Notes under the pieces: generated by a model
What the model saw: the letters and a program-made list of their open reading frames with translations, nothing else
Told to the model about the DNA's origin: nothing
The model's database searches: none
In this document: piece after piece, positions 24,525-61,273 of the stretch
Numbering within the stretch: position 1 is the stretch's first letter
Layout: each line of letters opens with the position of its first letter
Assembly (NCBI GenBank): GCA_013003535.1
Contig: JABDIY010000110.1
Span: forward strand, 1 to 61,636
Length of the DNA: 61,636 nucleotides
From: Acidimicrobiales bacterium
GTDB taxonomy: Bacteria; Actinomycetota; Acidimicrobiia; Acidimicrobiales; SZUA-35
Direction of reading: 5' to 3'
Translations under genes and position numbers: made by a program

Positions 24525-24538
24525 GGGACGAAAGTCCC
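24525..24538 (+). promoter_or_regulatory. DosR-type box of the cyclopropane synthase gene
   Basis: GGGACGAAAGTCCC inside the extended palindrome TAGGGACGAAAGTCCCTA (24523-24540), closest to the mycobacterial consensus. Centre 24531.5 is exactly 42.5 bp from ATG 24574. Confidence 0.88.
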
Positions 24539-24573: not shown

Positions 24574-25875
24574 ATGTCGACCCACGTTGCGATTGCCGCC
24601 GGGCACCACCCCAGCCTCGGCGCAAGTGCTCGATTGATGCGCTCCCTGTTGGGACCAGACCTGTGCGATCTCAGAATTGAACTGTACGACGGGACGGCGC
24701 TAGGACCCGCTCATGCCCCTACAACGGTGCGGATCACGTCGCCAGATTTTTTTCGTCGAGTCCTCCTGGGACTAGGGAGCGAACTCGCATTCAGCCGCGC
24801 CTATGTAGCGGGCGAAGTGGAGGTTGTCGGCGACATCTACGGGATCATGCGGCTCCGCGATCGCATCGCCGCGATAACTGTGGATTCCACGATGCTAGGG
24901 GATGCCGCAGAACTCCTTGGCGTCCACAGTCCGGCCGACCTCAGGAAACTTCGCCCGCTCCCGCCACCGCCGGAGGAGATTCGGCTACGGGGAAGACTCC
25001 ACTCCCCCAACCGTGATTCCCGAGCCGTTTCAGCTCACTACGACGTATCCAATGCCTTCTACAAGCAGTTTCTCGATCGCTCCATGACCTACTCATGCGC
25101 AGTCTTCGAGGACGAGTCCGACACGCTCGAACAGGCGCAACTCCAGAAGTATGAATTGATTGGCCGCAAGTTGGGGTTACGGCCGGGAATGCGCCTATTG
25201 GACGTTGGCTGCGGGTGGGGCGGAATGCTGATTCATGCCGCCCATACATTCGGTGTCCATGCGGTGGGGATCACCGTTTCACAAGAACAGCAGGAGCTCG
25301 CCGAGAAAAGGGTGGCAGAGGCTGGTCTCACCGAACAGATTCAGGTTCGCCTCCAGGACTATCGCAAGATATTGGACGGTCCGTTTGATGCGGTGAGCTC
25401 GATCGGGATGTTCGAACACGTGGGACAGAAACAGCTTGCCCGCTACTTCAACACAATCGCAGGCTTGCTCGTTCCGGGGGGGCGGCTACTCAATCACGCG
25501 ATCAACCGGTCAACTCCGCAATCACGGGCTCGGATCACGCCGAACAGCTTCATGGCCCGCTATGTGTTTCCCGACGGTGAACTCCTCGAACCCGGGCGGG
25601 TGGTGTCAGCGGCCACCGCATCAGGGTTGGAGGTCCGCCATCTAGAGTCGCTACGGGAGCACTATGCGCTCACCCTGCGGCGATGGGTGCAGAACCTGGA
25701 GGAGAACTGGGACGAGGCCGTGCGTCTGACGTCGTTGCCCAGGGCCAAGATCTGGCGTCTCTACATGGCTGGGTCAGCCCTGGCATTCGAAGCCAACGAA
25801 GTCACCGTCACGCAAATCCTCGCAACGAAGACAGTCGGCGGAGACGCCCGCTTTCCTCGCCGCCCAGAGTGGTAG
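24574..25875 (+). CDS. cfa: Cyclopropane-fatty-acyl-phospholipid synthase
   Basis: 433 aa. An N-terminal lipid-binding domain (about 1-130) is followed by the SAM-dependent methyltransferase core: SAHYDVSNAFYKQFLDRSMT, YSCAVFED, LLDVGCGWGGMLIHAA (SAM-binding) and SSIGMFEHVGQKQL with the family's catalytic/bicarbonate residues. Adds a methylene bridge to unsaturated acyl chains of membrane phospholipids, a stationary-phase and stress adaptation. No Shine-Dalgarno; the ATG is 42.5 bp from the strongest DosR-type box, so a leaderless mRNA induced by hypoxia is likely. Ends convergently, 9 bp from the next gene. Confidence 0.93.
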   Translation: MSTHVAIAAGHHPSLGASARLMRSLLGPDLCDLRIELYDGTALGPAHAPTTVRITSPDFFRRVLLGLGSELAFSRAYVAGEVEVVGDIYGIMRLRDRIAAITVDSTMLGDAAELLGVHSPADLRKLRPLPPPPEEIRLRGRLHSPNRDSRAVSAHYDVSNAFYKQFLDRSMTYSCAVFEDESDTLEQAQLQKYELIGRKLGLRPGMRLLDVGCGWGGMLIHAAHTFGVHAVGITVSQEQQELAEKRVAEAGLTEQIQVRLQDYRKILDGPFDAVSSIGMFEHVGQKQLARYFNTIAGLLVPGGRLLNHAINRSTPQSRARITPNSFMARYVFPDGELLEPGRVVSAATASGLEVRHLESLREHYALTLRRWVQNLEENWDEAVRLTSLPRAKIWRLYMAGSALAFEANEVTVTQILATKTVGGDARFPRRPEW

Positions 25876-46585: not shown

Positions 46586-47733
46586 GTTGGCTGCCCCTCG
46601 AGTTCTCGTTTCGGGCCGGGGGCGGCTCGGAACTCTGACAGTTCGTGAGTGAGATCGATTCCAACAGGACACCATGTGATACATCGGCCACAACCGACGC
46701 ATCCCGACTCATCGAACTGGTCAATCCAGCTGCCCAGCTTGTGGGTCAACCACTGCCGATAACGGGATTTGACCGAGGCGCGGTGCGGACCGGGGCCCAT
46801 ATGTGAGAACTCAAGACTGAAACAGCTGTCCCAGGTTCGCCACCGGTCGGTGTGGTCGCCTGAGAGATCAGTGACGTCCTCCATGTTGGTACAAAAACAG
46901 GTGGGACACGCCAGGGTGCAGTTCCCGCACGTCAAGCAGCGCTCGGCGATTTGGTCCCAGCGCGGGCTCTCGAGATTCCCGAAAAGCAGGTCTCGTATTC
47001 CTGTGGTGTCGATCTGACGCGTGATCCGGTCAACGGCGTCGGCGATGACCTGGCGGCCCCTTTCTCGCTCCGCATCGCTCGTTACAGCAGACGGCACGCC
47101 CCGGAGAACTGCGGCCCCCAAGTCCGACCCCGGTTCGGCGATGTAACGGACCTCCGAACCATCGACCAGTTCGGTGAGGGCGAGGTCGTAACCCGGCCCC
47201 GCCTTCGGACCGGTGCCCATTGACGGGCAAAAACACGTTGCGGCTGGCTCGCCACAATTCACCACCACCACAAACGTGTTTTCTCTGTTGGCGGTGTAGA
47301 CGGGATCGGGGTGGGGTCCGTGCATGAGGACACGGTCCTGTTTGGCGATTGCGGCCAGCTCGCAAGGACGAACGCCCACGAAAGCACGGAGCGGTCGGTC
47401 CGGCTCGGTCATCGTGACTTTTAACTCCCCCGCACTGTCCCGGGTCATTGACCAAACCTTGGTCCGGGCGGGATGCAGCACCTCTTTCCACGATTGCGGG
47501 CCGACCGCGTACCCGAACCGGGCGCCATCGTTGCGACGAACCAGGCGGTACCGTCCTCCCTCCTGCTCATCGGTCCACCCGACCGGGAGATCCTCAACCG
47601 ATCTGAGTAGGTCGGGAGTGATAACGCCATTGTGGACTTGTGGCCCGTAGACCTCATACCCTCGAGCCACGAGTTCCGACACCAACTCACCGAGGCCGGT
47701 GAGATCGATGGTGACCGAAGTGGGAGTGTTCAT
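46582..47733 (-). CDS. hydB: Group 3b hydrogenase iron-sulfur (beta) subunit
   Basis: 383 aa. Two ferredoxin-type clusters: CLTCGNCTLACPTCFC and SGCVGCGRCITWCPVGID in the C-terminal half; the N-terminal 230 residues match the sulfhydrogenase beta-subunit family. Transfers electrons between the small and flavin subunits. ATG 47733 is the first Met of the family alignment; the upstream in-frame Met at 47805 adds a non-homologous stretch. First gene of the hydrogenase operon; the mycobacterial counterpart (Hyd3 of M. smegmatis) is DosR-regulated. Confidence 0.92.
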   Translation of the reverse strand: MNTPTSVTIDLTGLGELVSELVARGYEVYGPQVHNGVITPDLLRSVEDLPVGWTDEQEGGRYRLVRRNDGARFGYAVGPQSWKEVLHPARTKVWSMTRDSAGELKVTMTEPDRPLRAFVGVRPCELAAIAKQDRVLMHGPHPDPVYTANRENTFVVVVNCGEPAATCFCPSMGTGPKAGPGYDLALTELVDGSEVRYIAEPGSDLGAAVLRGVPSAVTSDAERERGRQVIADAVDRITRQIDTTGIRDLLFGNLESPRWDQIAERCLTCGNCTLACPTCFCTNMEDVTDLSGDHTDRWRTWDSCFSLEFSHMGPGPHRASVKSRYRQWLTHKLGSWIDQFDESGCVGCGRCITWCPVGIDLTHELSEFRAAPGPKRELEGQPT

Positions 47734-47771
47734 ACGTGGTGGCCCCGTTCGTTTCAGGATTCCGTCAGCAG

Positions 47772-47786
47772 GCCACCTCTGGTGGC
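47772..47786. repeat. Perfect inverted repeat upstream of the hydrogenase operon
   Basis: GCCACC-TCT-GGTGGC, about 40-55 bp before ATG 47733. Half-sites differ from the DosR-type box, so it could bind another regulator. Confidence 0.45.
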
Positions 47787-47825
47787 TCCGATTCACAGCG
47801 TTCACCTTTCGGTCTCAGCGGTGCA

Positions 47826-47839
47826 GAGTCCAAAGTCCC
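47826..47839 (-). promoter_or_regulatory. DosR-type box of the hydrogenase operon
   Basis: GAGTCCAAAGTCCC centred at 47832.5. Predicted leftward start 47790, with AACGCT at -10 and a 57-nt leader to ATG 47733. Confidence 0.68.
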
Positions 47840-47864
47840 CACCGACGCTTTGGACGGCTCTGAT

Positions 47865-47878
47865 GGGACCAAGGACCC
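47865..47878 (+). promoter_or_regulatory. DosR-type box of the USP gene at 47914
   Basis: GGGACCAAGGACCC centred at 47871.5, exactly 42.5 bp from ATG 47914; T at -7. Lies 39 bp from the hydrogenase box. Confidence 0.85.
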
Positions 47879-47913
47879 TATTTGGTGACAAAGAATCGTG
47901 GTGTGCTGCCGCC

Positions 47914-48834
47914 ATGCGCCGGTTCAAGAACATCCTTTTCGTCCCCGCCCGGGGCAGCCAAGCTGCCGACGCAGAGGATCAGGCCGTGGCACTCGCCACG
48001 AACAACAACGCCCGCATCACTTTCTACGGAGCGGTGCCACCGGTTCCGCCGCTCCAAGAGTTTGTTCGGCTGGGTAACCCGCCGCGTTCAGTCAGCGAAT
48101 TGCTGGCCCACGAACTCAGCCAGACGCTGCAATTCTCGGTGAAAGAGCGCGACACCACGCTGGGCATCGACGTTGCGGTTGACATCGGTATCCCGTCAGT
48201 GGAAATCGTCCGAAGAGTCGTCGAGAACGGTCACGACCTTGTCATCCTTGCCGCCGACTCGACCGAGGATGGCGGAACGCTCGCTCGACGAATCCTTCGA
48301 AGCTGTCCGTGTCCGGTATGGGTGATGCGCCCGGGACCCGAAACAAACCGCGTACTGGCCTCAGTGGATCCGGCGGGCGAACCGGAACTCAATCGGCGGA
48401 TCGTACAAATCGCCCAGAGTCTTGCCACCAGCCATGCCGCCGAACTCCATATCGTGCATGCCTGGCAATTCGTGGGCGAGGAGGCTCTGATGAGGAGCGA
48501 ACATGTGGAGTTGGATGCCCGGGACTTGGCCGATGCAGCAACCGATGTGGAGGCGGCGCATCGTCGCCAGCTCGATGAGCTTCTCGACGCAGTCGGTCAT
48601 GACCGCAGCCGAAACGTTCACTTCGTCAATGCATCACCGGTCGCGGCGATGGCCGGACTGGTCGAGATGTACCGCATCGATGTGCTCACCATGGGCTCGG
48701 TCGGCCGGTCGGACAACGACGATGACTATTTTGGCAACACCGCCGAGATCATGTTCAGCAAGGTGCCCTGTTCGGTTCTCGTGGTGAAACCCGACGGATT
48801 TGTTCCGCCGGCAAAACGAACGAACACCACCTAG
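47914..48834 (+). CDS. Tandem universal stress protein, UspE-like
   Basis: 306 aa. Begins MRRFKNILFVPARGSQAADA; the C-terminal half has GSVGRSDNDDDYFGNTAEIM and ends VVKPDGFVP, close to the USP at 3391-4347. The first half has a CPCPVWVM strand and a degenerate nucleotide loop. Start is fixed by the box spacing: the reading frame is open much further upstream (to 47632), but 47914 is 42.5 bp from the box and matches the family start. Leaderless mRNA likely. A SulP permease gene follows after 19 bp. Confidence 0.88.
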   Translation: MRRFKNILFVPARGSQAADAEDQAVALATNNNARITFYGAVPPVPPLQEFVRLGNPPRSVSELLAHELSQTLQFSVKERDTTLGIDVAVDIGIPSVEIVRRVVENGHDLVILAADSTEDGGTLARRILRSCPCPVWVMRPGPETNRVLASVDPAGEPELNRRIVQIAQSLATSHAAELHIVHAWQFVGEEALMRSEHVELDARDLADAATDVEAAHRRQLDELLDAVGHDRSRNVHFVNASPVAAMAGLVEMYRIDVLTMGSVGRSDNDDDYFGNTAEIMFSKVPCSVLVVKPDGFVPPAKRTNTT

Positions 48835-53967: not shown

Positions 53968-54374
53968 CCGGCATGAAGGCAAACGGCCTAAAAGTTCTAG
54001 ATCGGGAGGAGTGTATCGATCTACTGGAAACCACGCCGATCGGACGGGTCGGCTTCATTTCCGACGATGGCCCGCTGGTGCTACCAGTGAACTACCACTG
54101 GCACGACGGGGGAATCGTTTTCCGGACCCATGCGGGTCAGAAACTCGAAGCGGCGGTCAAGCAGGAGAAAGTGTGCTTTGAGGTTGATCGGTGGAACTCT
54201 TCCCCCCGTTCTGGGGCAAGCGTCGTGGTGATGGGCGTGGCGCGGGAAGTGACCGACTGGGCCGAGAAGGAACAACTCGAGAACATAGGGCTCATTCCGT
54301 GGAGCCGGGATGGCTGGCGGCGGCTCTGGGTGCGCATCGAACCCACCGAGATAACGGGACGAGAACTTGCCTAG
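53964..54374 (+). CDS. Pyridoxamine 5'-phosphate oxidase-family protein
   Basis: 136 aa, same fold as the protein at 50552: ECIDLLETTPIGRVGFISDD, GPLVLPVNYHWHDGGIVFRT, GQKLEAAVKQEKVCFEVDRW and ASVVVMGVAREV. Likely flavin- or F420-binding; substrate unknown. ATG 53964 overlaps the ppdK stop (ATGA) and its own end overlaps the PFOR start, so expression is coupled with both. Confidence 0.87.
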   Translation: MTGMKANGLKVLDREECIDLLETTPIGRVGFISDDGPLVLPVNYHWHDGGIVFRTHAGQKLEAAVKQEKVCFEVDRWNSSPRSGASVVVMGVAREVTDWAEKEQLENIGLIPWSRDGWRRLWVRIEPTEITGRELA

Positions 54375-57300
54375 GGCGGTCGATCGGGACGAGCAAGTTT
54401 TCTTAACCCTCGACGGCAACGAGGCAGCCGCCCGTATCGCTCACCGAGTGAGCGAAGTTATCGCGATCTATCCGATCACGCCGGCGTCGCCGATGGGTGA
54501 ACTGGCCGATGCATGGTCCCAGTCCGGCCAGGCCAACCTTTGGGGATCCGTTCCTGAAGTCATTGAGATGCAAAGCGAAGGGGGCGCGGCCGGTGCCGTC
54601 CACGGCGCGCTTCAGGCCGGTGCACTCACCACCACCTTCACTGCTTCACAGGGCCTCCTTCTGATGATTCCCAACCTGTACAAAATCGCCGGCGAGTTGC
54701 TGCCTGCGGTGATCCATGTTGCGGCGCGATCCATTGCCACTCACGCCCTCAGCATTTTTGGTGACCACGGCGATGTGATGGCTGCCCGGCAAACAGGGAT
54801 GGCGCTGTTGGCCTCGGGATCGGTGCAGGAAGCGCATGATCTCGCGTTAGTCGCTCATGCGGCGACCCTCCGTGCCCGGGTGCCGTTCCTTCACTTCTTC
54901 GACGGGTTCCGCACCAGCCACGAGGTTGCGAAGATCGCCGCGCTCGACGATCACACGATTCGAAACATGATCGACGACGACCTCATCGCTCAGCACCGCC
55001 TTCGTGCTCTGGACCCGGATTCGCCGGTGATCCGGGGTACCGCCCAGAACCCGGATGTGTTCTTCCAGGCCACCGAGGCGGCAAATCGATTTCACGACGC
55101 CGTTCCTACCATCGTGCAGGAAGAGATGGACCGGTTGGCTGAGCACTCGGGACGGCGGTACAAGATCTTCGATTACCACGGGCACCCAGAAGCGGATCGG
55201 GCGATCGTGATCATGGGATCGGGCGCCGGGACGGTCGCAGAGGCGGTCGACGCCATGATCCAAAACGGTGAACGCGTTGGGGTTCTCACCGTGCATCTTT
55301 ACCGGCCTTTCGATGCTGTCGCGTTCGTGAACGCACTCCCTCGAACGGTTCAACACCTGGCGGTTTTGGATCGCACCAAGGAGCACGGCTCGGTTGGGGA
55401 GCCGCTCTATCTGGACACCGTCGCGGCACTCGCCCAGATGTGGCCAGACGTCGCCCTGCCCGTGGTTTCTCGAGCCCGCTATGGACTCTCATCCAAGGAA
55501 TTCACCCCGGCGATGGCGATGGCCGTATTCGGCGCACTCCGAGCGGCCGGACCGAGCGGCCAGATGACCGTGGGGATCACCGACGACGTCACCAATCTCA
55601 GCGTGGCATACGACCCCTCCGCCTGGAGCGAGCCCGCCACCGTCCGTCGAGCCGTGTTCTATGGGCTCGGCAGTGATGGCACGGTAGGGGCCAACAAGAA
55701 CACCGTGAAGATCATTGGCGATCAGACACCACTCCATGCTCAGGGCTACTTCGTCTACGACTCCAAGAAGTCGGGGTCCACAACGGTGTCCCACCTGCGA
55801 TTTGGACCGGACCCTATCCGATCCGCCTACCTCATTCAGGAGGCCGACTTCGTCGGGATTCATCATTTCGGCTCGCTGGACCGTCAGGACCTGCTGAAGG
55901 TCGCCGCCCCGGGCGCAACCGTCCTGATCAACTCCCCTTTTGGTTCCGAGGGCACGTGGGACAATCTCCCGGCCGAGGTGCAGCAGGAAATCATAGACAA
56001 GAACCTGGAGGTCTGGATACTCGATGGCGGGAAGGTGGCGCGAGAAAACGGACTCGGCAATCGGGTCAACACCGTGCTCCAGACCGGCTTCTTCGCTCTC
56101 TCCGAACTGTTGCCCGCCGAGCAGGCCGTGACCGCCATCAAGGATTCGATAACGAAGACCTATAGCAAACGCGGTCCCCTGGTACTGCAACGCAACTATG
56201 CAGCGGTCGACGCATCGATCGCAGCGCTCGCCCGGATGGAGATTCCCGCCGAGGTCAGTAGCAACCACGCTCGGCTCCCAGCTGTACCCACAATTGCCCC
56301 CGACTTCGTGCAGCGGGTTACCGGCCAGATCATCGCCGGCAACGGCGACCTTCTGCCGGTCAGTGCCTTCCCCGTCGACGGCACATTTCCCACCTCCACC
56401 TCGCAGTGGGAGAAGCGCACGATCGCCACGGAGATCCCCATCTGGGATCCCAGCATCTGCATCGACTGTGCGCGATGTGCACTGGTCTGCCCCCATGCTG
56501 CAATCCGAATCAAGGCTGTCCCTGCTGCGGAACTCGCCGATGCTCCGGAATCCTTCCAACACAAGGCCTGGAAAGACAAGAGCGACAACACCATGAGGGG
56601 CATCATTCAAGTAGCACCCGATGACTGCACGGGCTGTGGCGTTTGCGTAAACGTCTGTCCGGCCACATCCAAAGAGGTGGTGAAGCACAAATCGATCAAC
56701 ATGGAACCGATCGCCGACCACCTGAGCGTAGAACGGGTCAACTTCGACTACTTCCTGGGGCTACCCGAGTATGACCGAACCAAGCTGCGGCTCACATCGG
56801 TCAAGGGTTCCCAGCTGGCGCAGCCTTTGTTCGAGTTCTCGGGCGCATGCGCCGGCTGCGGCGAAACTCCTTATTTGAAGCTCCTTACCCAGCTGATGGG
56901 TGATCGTTTAGTCGTGGCGAACGCCACCGGCTGCTCATCGATCTACGGCGGGAATCTCCCCACTACACCCTGGACAACGAACGCCGATGGCCAGGGACCT
57001 GCATGGGCCAACTCCCTGTTCGAGGACAATGCCGAATTCGGATTGGGAATGCGGCTGGCTCTTGACCATCACCTGGAGGCTGCTCGACAGCTGGTTGCGG
57101 AGTTGGCGCCACAGCTCGGCGATCTCGCCACGCGCATCCTTGACTTTGATGGGACGGACGAAGGCGCGATTGGCGAACAACGGGGACTCCTCGCGCAGCT
57201 CCGAACTTGGCTCAATGATCACCCCGGGCCGCTCGCCAACCGTTTGGCAACCCTGGCCCATCATTTGGTCCCCCGGAGCGTATGGCTGGTTGGTGGAGAT

Positions 57301-57972
57301 GGCTGGGCCTACGACATTGGCTTCGGCGGTGTCGACCACGTCTTGGCAAGTGGGCGCGACGTCAACATCCTGGTCCTCGATACCGAGGTGTACTCCAACA
57401 CCGGCGGGCAGACATCCAAGGCCACGCCACGAGCCGCCATCGCCAAGTTCTCTGCCGGCGGAAAGGGCACGGCGAAGAAGGATCTGGGCATGCTCGCAAT
57501 GGCGCACGCTGACGTTTATGTGGCGCACATAGCGTTCGGGGCCAATATGACCCAAACCGTGAAAGCGATGACCGAGGCGGCAGCCCACCCGGGACCGTCA
57601 CTGATCATCGCCTACAGCCCTTGTATCGCCCATGGCATCGACATGACCAACATGGTTGACCATCAGAAAATGGCGGCCGATAGCGGCTACTGGCCCCTTT
57701 ATCGCTACGACCCTCGGCGGGAGTCCACACAGGACCACGCGCTCCATCTGGACAGCCGCAAACCCACGATTGCATTCAAGGATTTCGCCATGACCGAGGG
57801 CCGGTTTTCCATGCTGGAGCGAGCCAACCCCAGTGCAGCCGCCAAACTCCTCTCACAAGCTCAGCAGGATATTGATGACCGCTGGCATCTCTATGAACAG
57901 ATGGTTGATGTTGAACGCACGGCCCGGTACGGCGATTTGAGCGACGAACAGGATGAGGAGCACCACCGATGA
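54367..57972 (+). CDS. nifJ: Pyruvate:ferredoxin (flavodoxin) oxidoreductase
   Basis: 1201 aa single-chain PFOR. Domain order: pyruvate-binding N-terminus (ITPASPMGELADAW), CoA/transketolase-C part, gamma domain, a two-cluster ferredoxin domain (CIDCARCALVCPHAAIRI and CTGCGVCVNVCPAT) and the TPP domain (GACAGCGETPYLKLLTQL, GDGWAYDIGFGGVDH, EVYSNTGGQTSKATPR). Oxidises pyruvate with CoA to acetyl-CoA, CO2 and reduced ferredoxin. The TTG start at 54367 overlaps the preceding gene by 8 bp. Oxygen-sensitive family, consistent with hypoxic expression. Confidence 0.96.
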   Translation: MPRAVDRDEQVFLTLDGNEAAARIAHRVSEVIAIYPITPASPMGELADAWSQSGQANLWGSVPEVIEMQSEGGAAGAVHGALQAGALTTTFTASQGLLLMIPNLYKIAGELLPAVIHVAARSIATHALSIFGDHGDVMAARQTGMALLASGSVQEAHDLALVAHAATLRARVPFLHFFDGFRTSHEVAKIAALDDHTIRNMIDDDLIAQHRLRALDPDSPVIRGTAQNPDVFFQATEAANRFHDAVPTIVQEEMDRLAEHSGRRYKIFDYHGHPEADRAIVIMGSGAGTVAEAVDAMIQNGERVGVLTVHLYRPFDAVAFVNALPRTVQHLAVLDRTKEHGSVGEPLYLDTVAALAQMWPDVALPVVSRARYGLSSKEFTPAMAMAVFGALRAAGPSGQMTVGITDDVTNLSVAYDPSAWSEPATVRRAVFYGLGSDGTVGANKNTVKIIGDQTPLHAQGYFVYDSKKSGSTTVSHLRFGPDPIRSAYLIQEADFVGIHHFGSLDRQDLLKVAAPGATVLINSPFGSEGTWDNLPAEVQQEIIDKNLEVWILDGGKVARENGLGNRVNTVLQTGFFALSELLPAEQAVTAIKDSITKTYSKRGPLVLQRNYAAVDASIAALARMEIPAEVSSNHARLPAVPTIAPDFVQRVTGQIIAGNGDLLPVSAFPVDGTFPTSTSQWEKRTIATEIPIWDPSICIDCARCALVCPHAAIRIKAVPAAELADAPESFQHKAWKDKSDNTMRGIIQVAPDDCTGCGVCVNVCPATSKEVVKHKSINMEPIADHLSVERVNFDYFLGLPEYDRTKLRLTSVKGSQLAQPLFEFSGACAGCGETPYLKLLTQLMGDRLVVANATGCSSIYGGNLPTTPWTTNADGQGPAWANSLFEDNAEFGLGMRLALDHHLEAARQLVAELAPQLGDLATRILDFDGTDEGAIGEQRGLLAQLRTWLNDHPGPLANRLATLAHHLVPRSVWLVGGDGWAYDIGFGGVDHVLASGRDVNILVLDTEVYSNTGGQTSKATPRAAIAKFSAGGKGTAKKDLGMLAMAHADVYVAHIAFGANMTQTVKAMTEAAAHPGPSLIIAYSPCIAHGIDMTNMVDHQKMAADSGYWPLYRYDPRRESTQDHALHLDSRKPTIAFKDFAMTEGRFSMLERANPSAAAKLLSQAQQDIDDRWHLYEQMVDVERTARYGDLSDEQDEEHHR

Positions 57973-58973: not shown

Positions 58974-58986
58974 CCGAGCCGTCTTC

Positions 58987-59000
58987 GGGACCATCGTCCC
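58987..59000 (+). promoter_or_regulatory. DosR-type box of the SnoaL-HPF gene
   Basis: GGGACCATCGTCCC centred at 58993.5; predicted start 59036, -10 GAAGGT, 35-nt leader with AGGAGG before GTG 59071. Confidence 0.82.
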
Positions 59001-59070
59001 GTAGCGGTGGACAACTTCTCATTGAAGGTAAGAATGGACAACTACAGACCCCAAGCCCAAGGAGGCCCAA

Positions 59071-60495
59071 GTGCCCGATGGAAGAGTGATGCGGATCGAT
59101 GCCGAGCGAGAGTGCGTGTATGTCGTACGGCGAGGACGAAGCTACGAGGCGCCGCTCTCCGAAGTCGAAGCGGCGGCACGCGTTCCGAGCGCCCGAGTTC
59201 GGTTCAATCTCCGACGGTCTAACGGCGTAGAAAGCGCCGAAAACGTAACGCTTCGATCAGGAACACGAACCAACCGACGCCAACGCCGGTTCGGCGACCT
59301 CACCGGAGCCCGGAGCCCGGGATCCAAGGTGAAGACCTCGGCCCAGAAAGAGTTCGGATTAGATGTCACCACCCAACCATTCCGGGTGGTTCGCGCATGG
59401 ATCCAGACGGTCAGCAAACGAGACCTCGATGCCGCCGCTTCGCTTTATCTCCCCAGTGCGGTCGTCTATACACCGCAGGGCGCAATTGGAGGACGAGCCC
59501 GCATTCGGGCGCTTCTGGACGAATCCTCCTGGATCGGGCACGATCCCGACGACGTAGAACTCCACGGAATGGATCAGTACGTTCAGGCGTACTGCCCCGA
59601 CCACGAAGACCTGACCACAACTTTCATGATCATCGAAAGTGGCCAGATTGCCGAGCAGTGGTTAGGTCTCATCCCGGACTTCGATCACGACGAGACCGCG
59701 GCGCCGATGCTACAGGTTCTCCAGAAAGGAGACGTCGACCGGGCGGCGGTGGACTACGCCAACCACCGACTGGAGCATCTTGCCGAATCCCTCGGTCGGC
59801 CGATCGGGCTGGGTTTGGTGAAGCTCACCCAGGCCGGTAACCCGGCGGTGCAGAAACCAGCGATGGCCGAAGCCAGTCTCGATGTGGATGGAACCTTCGT
59901 GCGCGCCCACATCGCCGCCCGAACCATGACCGAGGCAATCGATCTGGTGATCGGCCGGCTCAAAGCGAAGCTGGACCATCACAAGGACAACCGGAAGCAT
60001 CGGAAAGGAGCTCCGAACCCTGAGGAGTGGCGCCACGGCAATCTGCCATCTAGCAACACACCCTATTTCGATCGGCCCCGGCACGAACGAGAAGTCGTGC
60101 GCCACAAGTCCTTCGCCCCGGACGAAATGACCGTGGAAGAAGCGGCGTGGGACATGACACAACTGGACTATGACTTCTTCTTGTTCGTAGAGCTCAACAC
60201 CGGATTGGATTGCCTCCTCGAACGGGCTGACGACGGCGCCCCGGTGGTGCTGCACGGACTTGTGGGCAACAACGGCGGGGTCTCCTCCGACGTCATTGGA
60301 ATGGAATTCAGCGACGAGTCTCCCCCAGCACTCAAACTCAGCGAAGCGATCGAATTTCTCGACACCGCAGGAAGTCGATTTGTCTTCTTCGAGAACACCG
60401 CCACCAACCGCCGCAACGTTGTGTACCGCAGATATGACGGGCACTACGGTCTCATCACACCACCGACCAGCAACAATGACAACGACAACGAGTAA
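59071..60495 (+). CDS. Ribosome hibernation factor (HPF/RafH-like) fused to a SnoaL-like domain
   Basis: 474 aa. Residues 1-90: short beta start and a basic Arg-rich linker. 103-200: SnoaL/NTF2-like cone (AWIQTVSKRDLDAAASLYLP, GGRARIRALLDE). 215-305: HPF/RaiA-type domain (VDYANHRLEHLAES, AEASLDVDGTFVRAHIAA, IGRLKAKLDHHKDNRK). 340-398 and 408-465: two copies of the S30AE C-terminal domain (VVRHKSFAPDEMTVEEAAWD; LSEAIEFLDTAGSRFVFF). The latter two parts match mycobacterial RafH, a DosR-regulated factor that binds ribosomes in hypoxia. The SnoaL addition is unusual. GTG 59071 after AGGAGG. Ends 31 bp before the next box. Confidence 0.82.
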   Translation: MPDGRVMRIDAERECVYVVRRGRSYEAPLSEVEAAARVPSARVRFNLRRSNGVESAENVTLRSGTRTNRRQRRFGDLTGARSPGSKVKTSAQKEFGLDVTTQPFRVVRAWIQTVSKRDLDAAASLYLPSAVVYTPQGAIGGRARIRALLDESSWIGHDPDDVELHGMDQYVQAYCPDHEDLTTTFMIIESGQIAEQWLGLIPDFDHDETAAPMLQVLQKGDVDRAAVDYANHRLEHLAESLGRPIGLGLVKLTQAGNPAVQKPAMAEASLDVDGTFVRAHIAARTMTEAIDLVIGRLKAKLDHHKDNRKHRKGAPNPEEWRHGNLPSSNTPYFDRPRHEREVVRHKSFAPDEMTVEEAAWDMTQLDYDFFLFVELNTGLDCLLERADDGAPVVLHGLVGNNGGVSSDVIGMEFSDESPPALKLSEAIEFLDTAGSRFVFFENTATNRRNVVYRRYDGHYGLITPPTSNNDNDNE

Positions 60496-60525: not shown

Positions 60526-60539
60526 AGGACTTTCGTCCC
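60526..60539 (+). promoter_or_regulatory. DosR-type box of the dosR-like gene
   Basis: AGGACTTTCGTCCC, part of the wider palindrome TAAGGACTTTCGTCCCTA. Predicted start near 60575 with a 27-nt leader; indicates autoregulation. Confidence 0.75.
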
Positions 60540-60601
60540 TAGCAGGCGACCAACAACTGCTCCCAAACTTGCGGGCATGGGCAGTCATAGGAAGACGTGA
60601 T

Positions 60602-61273
60602 ATGACGAACGACGAGAACGGTTCTGGAACCATCCGAGTCTTCATCCTCGATGACCACGAGATTGTGCGGAGGGGTGTAGCCGACCTCGTCAATGCCGAG
60701 CCCGACCTGGAGGTCGTTGCCGAAGAAGGCTCGGCTCAACAGGCACTGCGGGCAGTCGAACGGTTCAAGCCTGATGTAGCAGTCTTGGATGTTCGTCTTG
60801 AAGACGGCAACGGAATTGAAGTGTGCCGGGACATTCGATCGGCCCACCCTGAGGTTGCATGTCTCATCCTCACCTCATTTGCCGACGATCACGCGCTGGT
60901 GGACGCCTCCTTCGCAGGAGCAGCGGGATACGTGCTCAAACAAATCCGTAGCAACGATCTCATCGAATCCATACGGAAGGTGGCAAACGGCGCAGCTCTG
61001 TTGGACTCGGCAACGGTCCGCATGGCCATGTCACGACTGAAGGAAAGCGAAGAAGGCGCTATCGCAACTCTCACCCCACAAGAGCACCGCATCTTTGATC
61101 TCATCGGTGAAGGTTGGTCCAATCGGCAGATCGCCGAGGAACTCTTCCTCGCCGAGAAGACCGTCAAGAACTATGTATCGAACCTGCTTGCCAAGTTGGG
61201 CATGAGCCGGCGAACTGAGGCCGCCGCCTTCGCAGCCCGACTGGAGGAGCGAAGCCGGCGTCGCTACGAATAG
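60602..61273 (+). CDS. dosR: DosR/DevR-type response regulator
   Basis: 223 aa NarL-family regulator. Receiver: acidic pair Asp17-Asp18 in ILDDHEIVRRG, phospho-acceptor Asp63 in AVLDVRLEDGNGIEVCRDI, Thr91, and Lys113. The C-terminal HTH has the recognition region LAEKTVKNYVSNLLAKLGM, differing from M. tuberculosis DosR at only one of those positions, so it should bind the same GGGAC-type palindromes found all over this window. ATG 60602 has GGAAG upstream. A DosR-type box in its own promoter implies positive feedback. A PAS kinase gene overlaps its stop. Presumed master activator of the island. Confidence 0.95.
   Translation: MTNDENGSGTIRVFILDDHEIVRRGVADLVNAEPDLEVVAEEGSAQQALRAVERFKPDVAVLDVRLEDGNGIEVCRDIRSAHPEVACLILTSFADDHALVDASFAGAAGYVLKQIRSNDLIESIRKVANGAALLDSATVRMAMSRLKESEEGAIATLTPQEHRIFDLIGEGWSNRQIAEELFLAEKTVKNYVSNLLAKLGMSRRTEAAAFAARLEERSRRRYE

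Follow-up and report, generated by a model that had tools for sequence, protein, structure and literature searches.

A conserved N-terminal module with cold-shock-like and SnoaL-like domains on a RafH-type hibernation factor probably under DosR-type control

Mycobacterial RafH (MSMEG_3935 / Rv0079; PDB 8whx) is controlled by DosR and carries a doubled C-terminal domain that mimics, within one chain, the C-domain dimer of long hibernation promoting factor (HPF), so that 70S monosomes and not 100S particles result (PMC10799931). Two RafH linker residues, W111 and F124, stack on the anti-Shine-Dalgarno, and R120 is a further residue of this anti-Shine-Dalgarno-binding linker. Hibernation factors have already been extended by fusion, as in HPFcold, HibA and a reported HPF-SigE, and a 2025 preprint by Chan et al. 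on the evolution of hibernation factors (bioRxiv 2025.11.04.686544, as cited in PMC13392368) reports HPF fusions. In HPFcold the anti-Shine-Dalgarno wraps around a C-terminal cold-shock domain (CSD) (PMC13392368), and in HibA an N-terminal module occupies the tRNA sites and the PTC (PMC13324472). SnoaL_2 domains are known in ECF sigma factors, where they are thought to act through intramolecular contacts (PMC7730460). Our literature search, which did not extend to the Chan et al. preprint, returned no paper containing both "hibernation promoting factor" and "SnoaL".

The gene at 59071-60495 (+) of the window (the whole stretch of DNA analyzed, 61,636 nucleotides) comes from the draft genome of an uncultured actinobacterium, assembled in 221 contigs and 96% complete. 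It is one intact open reading frame encoding 474 aa, with a GTG start and a perfect Shine-Dalgarno sequence, AAGGAGG, at 59059..59065 (+), 5 bases 5' of the start. Orthologues with 43-57% identity share an MPDGRV-type start and read through to the C-terminus with no internal stops. The first-pass annotation had proposed a single polypeptide with the order SnoaL-HPF-CTD-CTD, and Pfam, the predicted model and the orthologues all bear this out and show the order to be widely conserved. The protein comprises the following segments:

59071..59256 (+), residues 1-62: CSD-like OB barrel with eroded RNA-binding aromatics (hhalign, shuffle control, predicted strands)
59257..59346 (+), residues 63-92: Arg-rich tail, GTRTxRRQRRFGDLTGA, predicted to be mobile (conservation, charge, pLDDT)
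59368..59670 (+), residues 100-200: NTF2/SnoaL-like domain (Pfam SnoaL_2, PDB fold match, profile match)
59707..60000 (+), residues 213-310: HPF N-domain, putative decoding-centre binder (Pfam PF02482, alignment to RafH 8whx)
60001..60084 (+), residues 311-338: RafH linker (W320 and F333 align with RafH W111 and F124)
60085..60255 (+), residues 339-395: first S30AE C-domain (Pfam PF16321, predicted model)
60301..60462 (+), residues 411-464: second S30AE C-domain (Pfam PF16321, two stretches; predicted model)

The C-terminal 260 aa are of the RafH type, with an HPF domain followed by two S30AE C-domains. The best match among PDB sequences is M. smegmatis RafH (8whx; E 1.3e-45, residues 221-468), and Pfam detects Ribosomal_S30AE (PF02482) at residues 221-308 with 25.8 bits against a cut-off of 23.7, as well as Ribosom_S30AE_C (PF16321) in two stretches with 82.6 bits. 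The duplicated C-terminal domain that had been singled out as unusual is thus present, but, because the best PDB match is RafH, it represents the ordinary RafH arrangement and not an oddity (PMC10799931). In the linker, W320 and F333 are kept and N329 occupies the position of RafH R120, whereas several rRNA contacts of the RafH HPF domain are changed (R75 to T287, R37 to L249 and W96 to R308); some relatives have lost the linker motif but retain the N-terminal module. The gene is the one S30AE gene detected in the source genome: we found no second HPF/S30AE gene in this 96% complete draft and no second HPF in three other fusion-carrying members of the genus, also drafts (81-96% completeness across these genomes).

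The part preceding the SnoaL domain had been described as a basic linker, a description that holds for the Arg-rich tail but not for residues 1-62. Because the Pfam CSD model fell under the cut-off in every family member scanned, we turned to profile-profile comparison with five cold-shock proteins: the source genome's own Csp, two from PDB-sequence search alignments, and those of E. coli and B. subtilis. Residues 1-62 matched this set with an hhalign Prob of 95.4 and E 1.7e-8, the score of 44.9 comparing with a maximum of 12.1 among 200 column-shuffled controls. The predicted model places five strands in the right order (3-10, 15-20, 23-28, 42-50 and 53-61; pLDDT 92-96), and more distant orthologues open with a CSD-type GVVKWFDPxxGxxxI. 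When the N-module profile was run against PDB sequences, cold-shock proteins appeared at E 0.5-1.4 among unrelated aldolases, a weak result taken alone, and a fold search with the model of residues 1-212 was filled by NTF2 matches, the CSD assignment resting on profiles and strand order. On these grounds we assign residues 1-62 to the cold-shock domains, in diverged form. The RNP1/RNP2 aromatics (KWFN, KGFGFI, VFVH) are not kept in the 474-aa protein, which has RID / ECVYVV instead; most of the nucleic-acid-binding aromatics are gone from the CSD of the source's family, and retention of the WF pair is confined to other families of the order and to the stand-alone proteins described below.

The Arg-rich tail has a mean pairwise identity of 56.8% and a net charge of +7 (+3 to +9 across the family), with pLDDT <50 at residues 68-86. 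Together, the CSD and tail rank among the most strongly conserved regions, with a mean pairwise identity of 51-57% as against 33% for the SnoaL domain and 33% for the HPF N-domain, and conservation of the N-terminal module equals that of the C-domains. One relative, in G006 (L011:1420-2823, -), keeps the first half of the CSD and the SnoaL domain and has no counterpart of residues 36-94, a gap that takes in the remainder of the CSD as well as the tail.

Pattern matching with the DosR consensus, together with comparison to solved structures, identified candidate regulatory features on both sides of the gene:

58985..59003 (no strand assigned): putative DosR-type operator TCGGGACCATCGTCCCGTA, palindromic core GGGAC-N4-GTCCC (pattern match, 0 mismatches)
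60526..60539 (no strand assigned): putative DosR-like core AGGACTTTCGTCCC, upstream of the response regulator (pattern match, 1 mismatch)
60569..61273 (+): next gene, DosR/DevR-like LuxR response regulator (best PDB match M. tuberculosis DevR)

The fusion gene has an exact GGGACCATCGTCCC site 70 bases 5' of its start, and sites with at most 1 mismatch occur within 200 bp upstream in 6 of 20 family members, among them the stand-alone gene of G132 with an exact site (mean of the shuffles 0.57; 0 of 300 reached this number), with none seen upstream of several more distant fused orthologues. Among solved structures, the product of 60569-61273 matches M. tuberculosis DevR with E 6e-67 and 228 bits, the next match being VraR with 138 bits. 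On this sequence evidence, 59071-60495 is probably under DosR-type control. Genes 5' of 59071 are PEP-utilising synthase/dikinase-like, pyridoxamine-oxidase-like and DHO_dh-like, and the upstream 1201-aa ORF at 54367-57972 is read, from its sequence, as a pyruvate:ferredoxin oxidoreductase. Elsewhere in the window, a cyclopropane-fatty-acid-synthase-type gene at 24574 is closely preceded by an exact GGGACGAAAGTCCC DosR-like site (24525-24538). A two-domain universal stress protein gene is located at 47632-48831, near dormancy-type genes; a near-match to the DosR site at 47865 falls inside its called ORF, so that its true start may be later.

Most likely, the 474-aa protein is induced in hypoxia or dormancy and acts as a hibernation factor of the 70S ribosome, with further contacts to the ribosome or to RNA made by its N-terminal module. 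In its fuller form, in which the protein is a RafH-type factor belonging to a DosR-like dormancy regulon and its conserved CSD/Arg-tail/NTF2 module contributes ribosome contacts, this is the explanation we favor and consider reasonably probable. The protein would be induced via the DosR box in low-oxygen dormancy. By homology with RafH, its HPF domain would occupy the decoding centre, the linker would lie over the anti-Shine-Dalgarno, and the two fused C-domains would dock on the platform as one monomer, giving idle 70S monosomes and not 100S dimers, with the idle ribosomes shut down and protected. The Arg-rich tail and CSD may hold on to RNA left exposed in the vacant tRNA/intersubunit space, in the manner of HibA's N-terminal CBS module, and the NTF2 domain may be a non-catalytic binding or spacer domain. 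Counting for this explanation are the RafH homology with the linker W and F kept, the CSD barrel and NTF2 fold modelled with high confidence, the operator, the adjacent DosR homologue, the lack of another detected HPF in the genome, and the HPFcold and HibA structures as precedents; counting against it are the changed RafH contacts, linker loss in relatives, the eroded CSD aromatics, the stand-alone CSD-SnoaL proteins of genomes that have no RafH match, and the absence of the DosR box in several distant orthologues.

A search of 60 related genomes and the source's own recovered the fusion in full length, at 43-57% identity, from eight more members of the source's family. The full architecture is present in one family (G000, G002-G004, G016, G026, G031, G034 and G036) and, in class and order searches, in five further families (G293, G421, G312, G432, G612, G630, G603 and G554); contig ends cut the G016 orthologue at the C-terminus, and the G626 and G497 matches are also cut. 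The domain order proposed in the first-pass annotation is accordingly found in at least 17 genomes and six families of the order. Across the class and phylum, the N-terminal extension is missing from most RafH proteins, and a related-locus search of genome contigs yielded one relative only, a RafH without it. A tree built from 60 RafH domains shows strong clustering of the extended form (4 changes versus 15.7 in shuffles), and the source's family forms a well-supported clade. A single origin of the fusion is unsupported, since branches with good support require the extension to have been gained or lost at least twice. The G312 orthologue (L066:5785-7599, -; 605 aa) has an extra in-frame C-terminal DksA/TraR-type zinc finger (PF01258, 39.8 bits), so that one chain holds a hibernation factor and a domain of the RNA-polymerase-regulator type.

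In other lineages, the CSD-SnoaL module is present as a stand-alone protein of about 200 aa without HPF:

L064:6333-6944 (+): stand-alone CSD-SnoaL without HPF
L063:4118-4726 (-): stand-alone CSD-SnoaL without HPF
L117:6043-6675 (+): stand-alone CSD-SnoaL without HPF
L119:6399-7031 (-): stand-alone CSD-SnoaL without HPF

The recurrence of the order in these genomes and families, along with the existence of CSD-SnoaL without HPF, argues that the N-terminal module is real. Judged from sequence comparison, the fusion itself is real and conserved; how the new part works is what we infer. Two genomes of the same class, G132 and G150, encode the stand-alone protein and one classical-type HPF match each, with no RafH match, and the stand-alone gene of each is preceded by an exact DosR-like box. 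In G761, G1031 and G962, from the same phylum but a different family and class, the stand-alone protein and RafH are separate genes, the G962 protein being truncated by a contig end. Such proteins, of which two are preceded by this type of operator, are suggestive of an unnamed, unrecognised dormancy protein family.

That the stand-alone form is encoded in G132 and G150, which have no RafH match, leaves room for a role of the module away from the ribosome. The module could be an RNA or protein binder, for example, holding mRNA or another dormancy protein, that is merely tethered to RafH, an alternative also in line with the separate genes of G761, G962 and G1031. However, the presence of the fusion in six families and its clustering on the RafH tree suggest that joint action of the module and RafH matters, and we regard a purely off-ribosome role as somewhat unlikely. 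A bolder version of the ribosome-bound reading, to which we give slightly less credence, is that the protein represents a separate class of hibernation factor, convergent with archaeal HibA and the sole HPF in its genus, in which the N-terminal CSD-NTF2 module would enter the intersubunit space and a second signal, in the form of RNA or a small molecule, would govern 70S release or protection. If so, starvation and hypoxia hibernation in the genus would rest on one protein.

That a small metabolite in the NTF2/SnoaL pocket switches ribosome binding on or off, as initially suggested, is improbable in our estimation. The domain itself was recovered by structure prediction, as the first-pass annotation had anticipated: the model matches NTF2/ketosteroid-isomerase-like folds in the PDB (Z 12.8 over 99 residues), residues 100-200 match ketosteroid isomerase by profile (E 8e-6), and SnoaL_2 is detected from residue 107 with 25.2 bits, just under the 27-bit cut-off, and in one orthologue with 28.1 bits, over it. 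This fold, together with an invariant W110 and a near-invariant Y126 among the aromatics of the domain, would be compatible with ligand binding. However, the catalytic residues of ketosteroid isomerase, Tyr14 and Asp38, are replaced at the aligned positions by W110 and T134, so that the pocket is not an isomerase site and identity with that enzyme was rejected; moreover, conservation of the domain (33%) is near the lowest in the protein. HibA offers a precedent for a nucleotide-binding module fused to HPF, but its position on the ribosome is largely unchanged by ATP or AMP (PMC13324472). In the full-length model, flexible segments join the domains, and how these are placed relative to one another is not confidently predicted (pTM 0.35). 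Gating of hibernation by a ligand in the SnoaL pocket is conceivable but lacks support. Finally, an assembly error joining two genes, or a wrong start, is scarcely credible even for a draft in 221 contigs, given that many independent genomes have the identical order and start with no stop; a separate-gene or frameshift origin of residues 1-205 is ruled out by these orthologues.

Compared with known systems, the favored RafH-type hibernation factor shares with RafH the HPF domain, a linker with the W and F that in RafH stack on the anti-Shine-Dalgarno, two fused S30AE C-domains and, as read here from the operator sequence and the adjacent DevR homologue, probable DosR-type control, whereas RafH is 258 aa long and is without the N-terminal CSD-tail-SnoaL module (PMC10799931). 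With HPFcold of Coxiella (CBU_0020; PMC13392368) it has in common an HPF domain fused with a diverged CSD that is more conserved than the HPF domain. The CSD of HPFcold is, in contrast, C-terminal and binds the anti-Shine-Dalgarno, in a protein with neither a SnoaL domain nor S30AE C-domains, whereas the 474-aa protein has an N-terminal CSD and a SnoaL domain between CSD and HPF. Because the module is N-terminal, the geometry of HibA, an archaeal HPF/RaiA fused with CBS (PMC13324472), is the closer guide: both have a sensor-like module ahead of the HPF domain, although HibA has CBS in place of CSD-SnoaL and is without S30AE C-domains. The ECF41 and ECF56 sigma factors of Actinobacteria (SigJ, SigG1; PMC7730460) likewise fuse SnoaL_2 to a gene-expression factor, but they are transcription factors and their SnoaL domain is C-terminal. 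To the fusions already described, the 474-aa protein adds a conserved further type in Actinomycetota, bringing an RNA-binding-type and a pocket-type domain together, in a genus whose draft genomes yielded no other HPF, and it makes second-input gating of hibernation testable in one protein.
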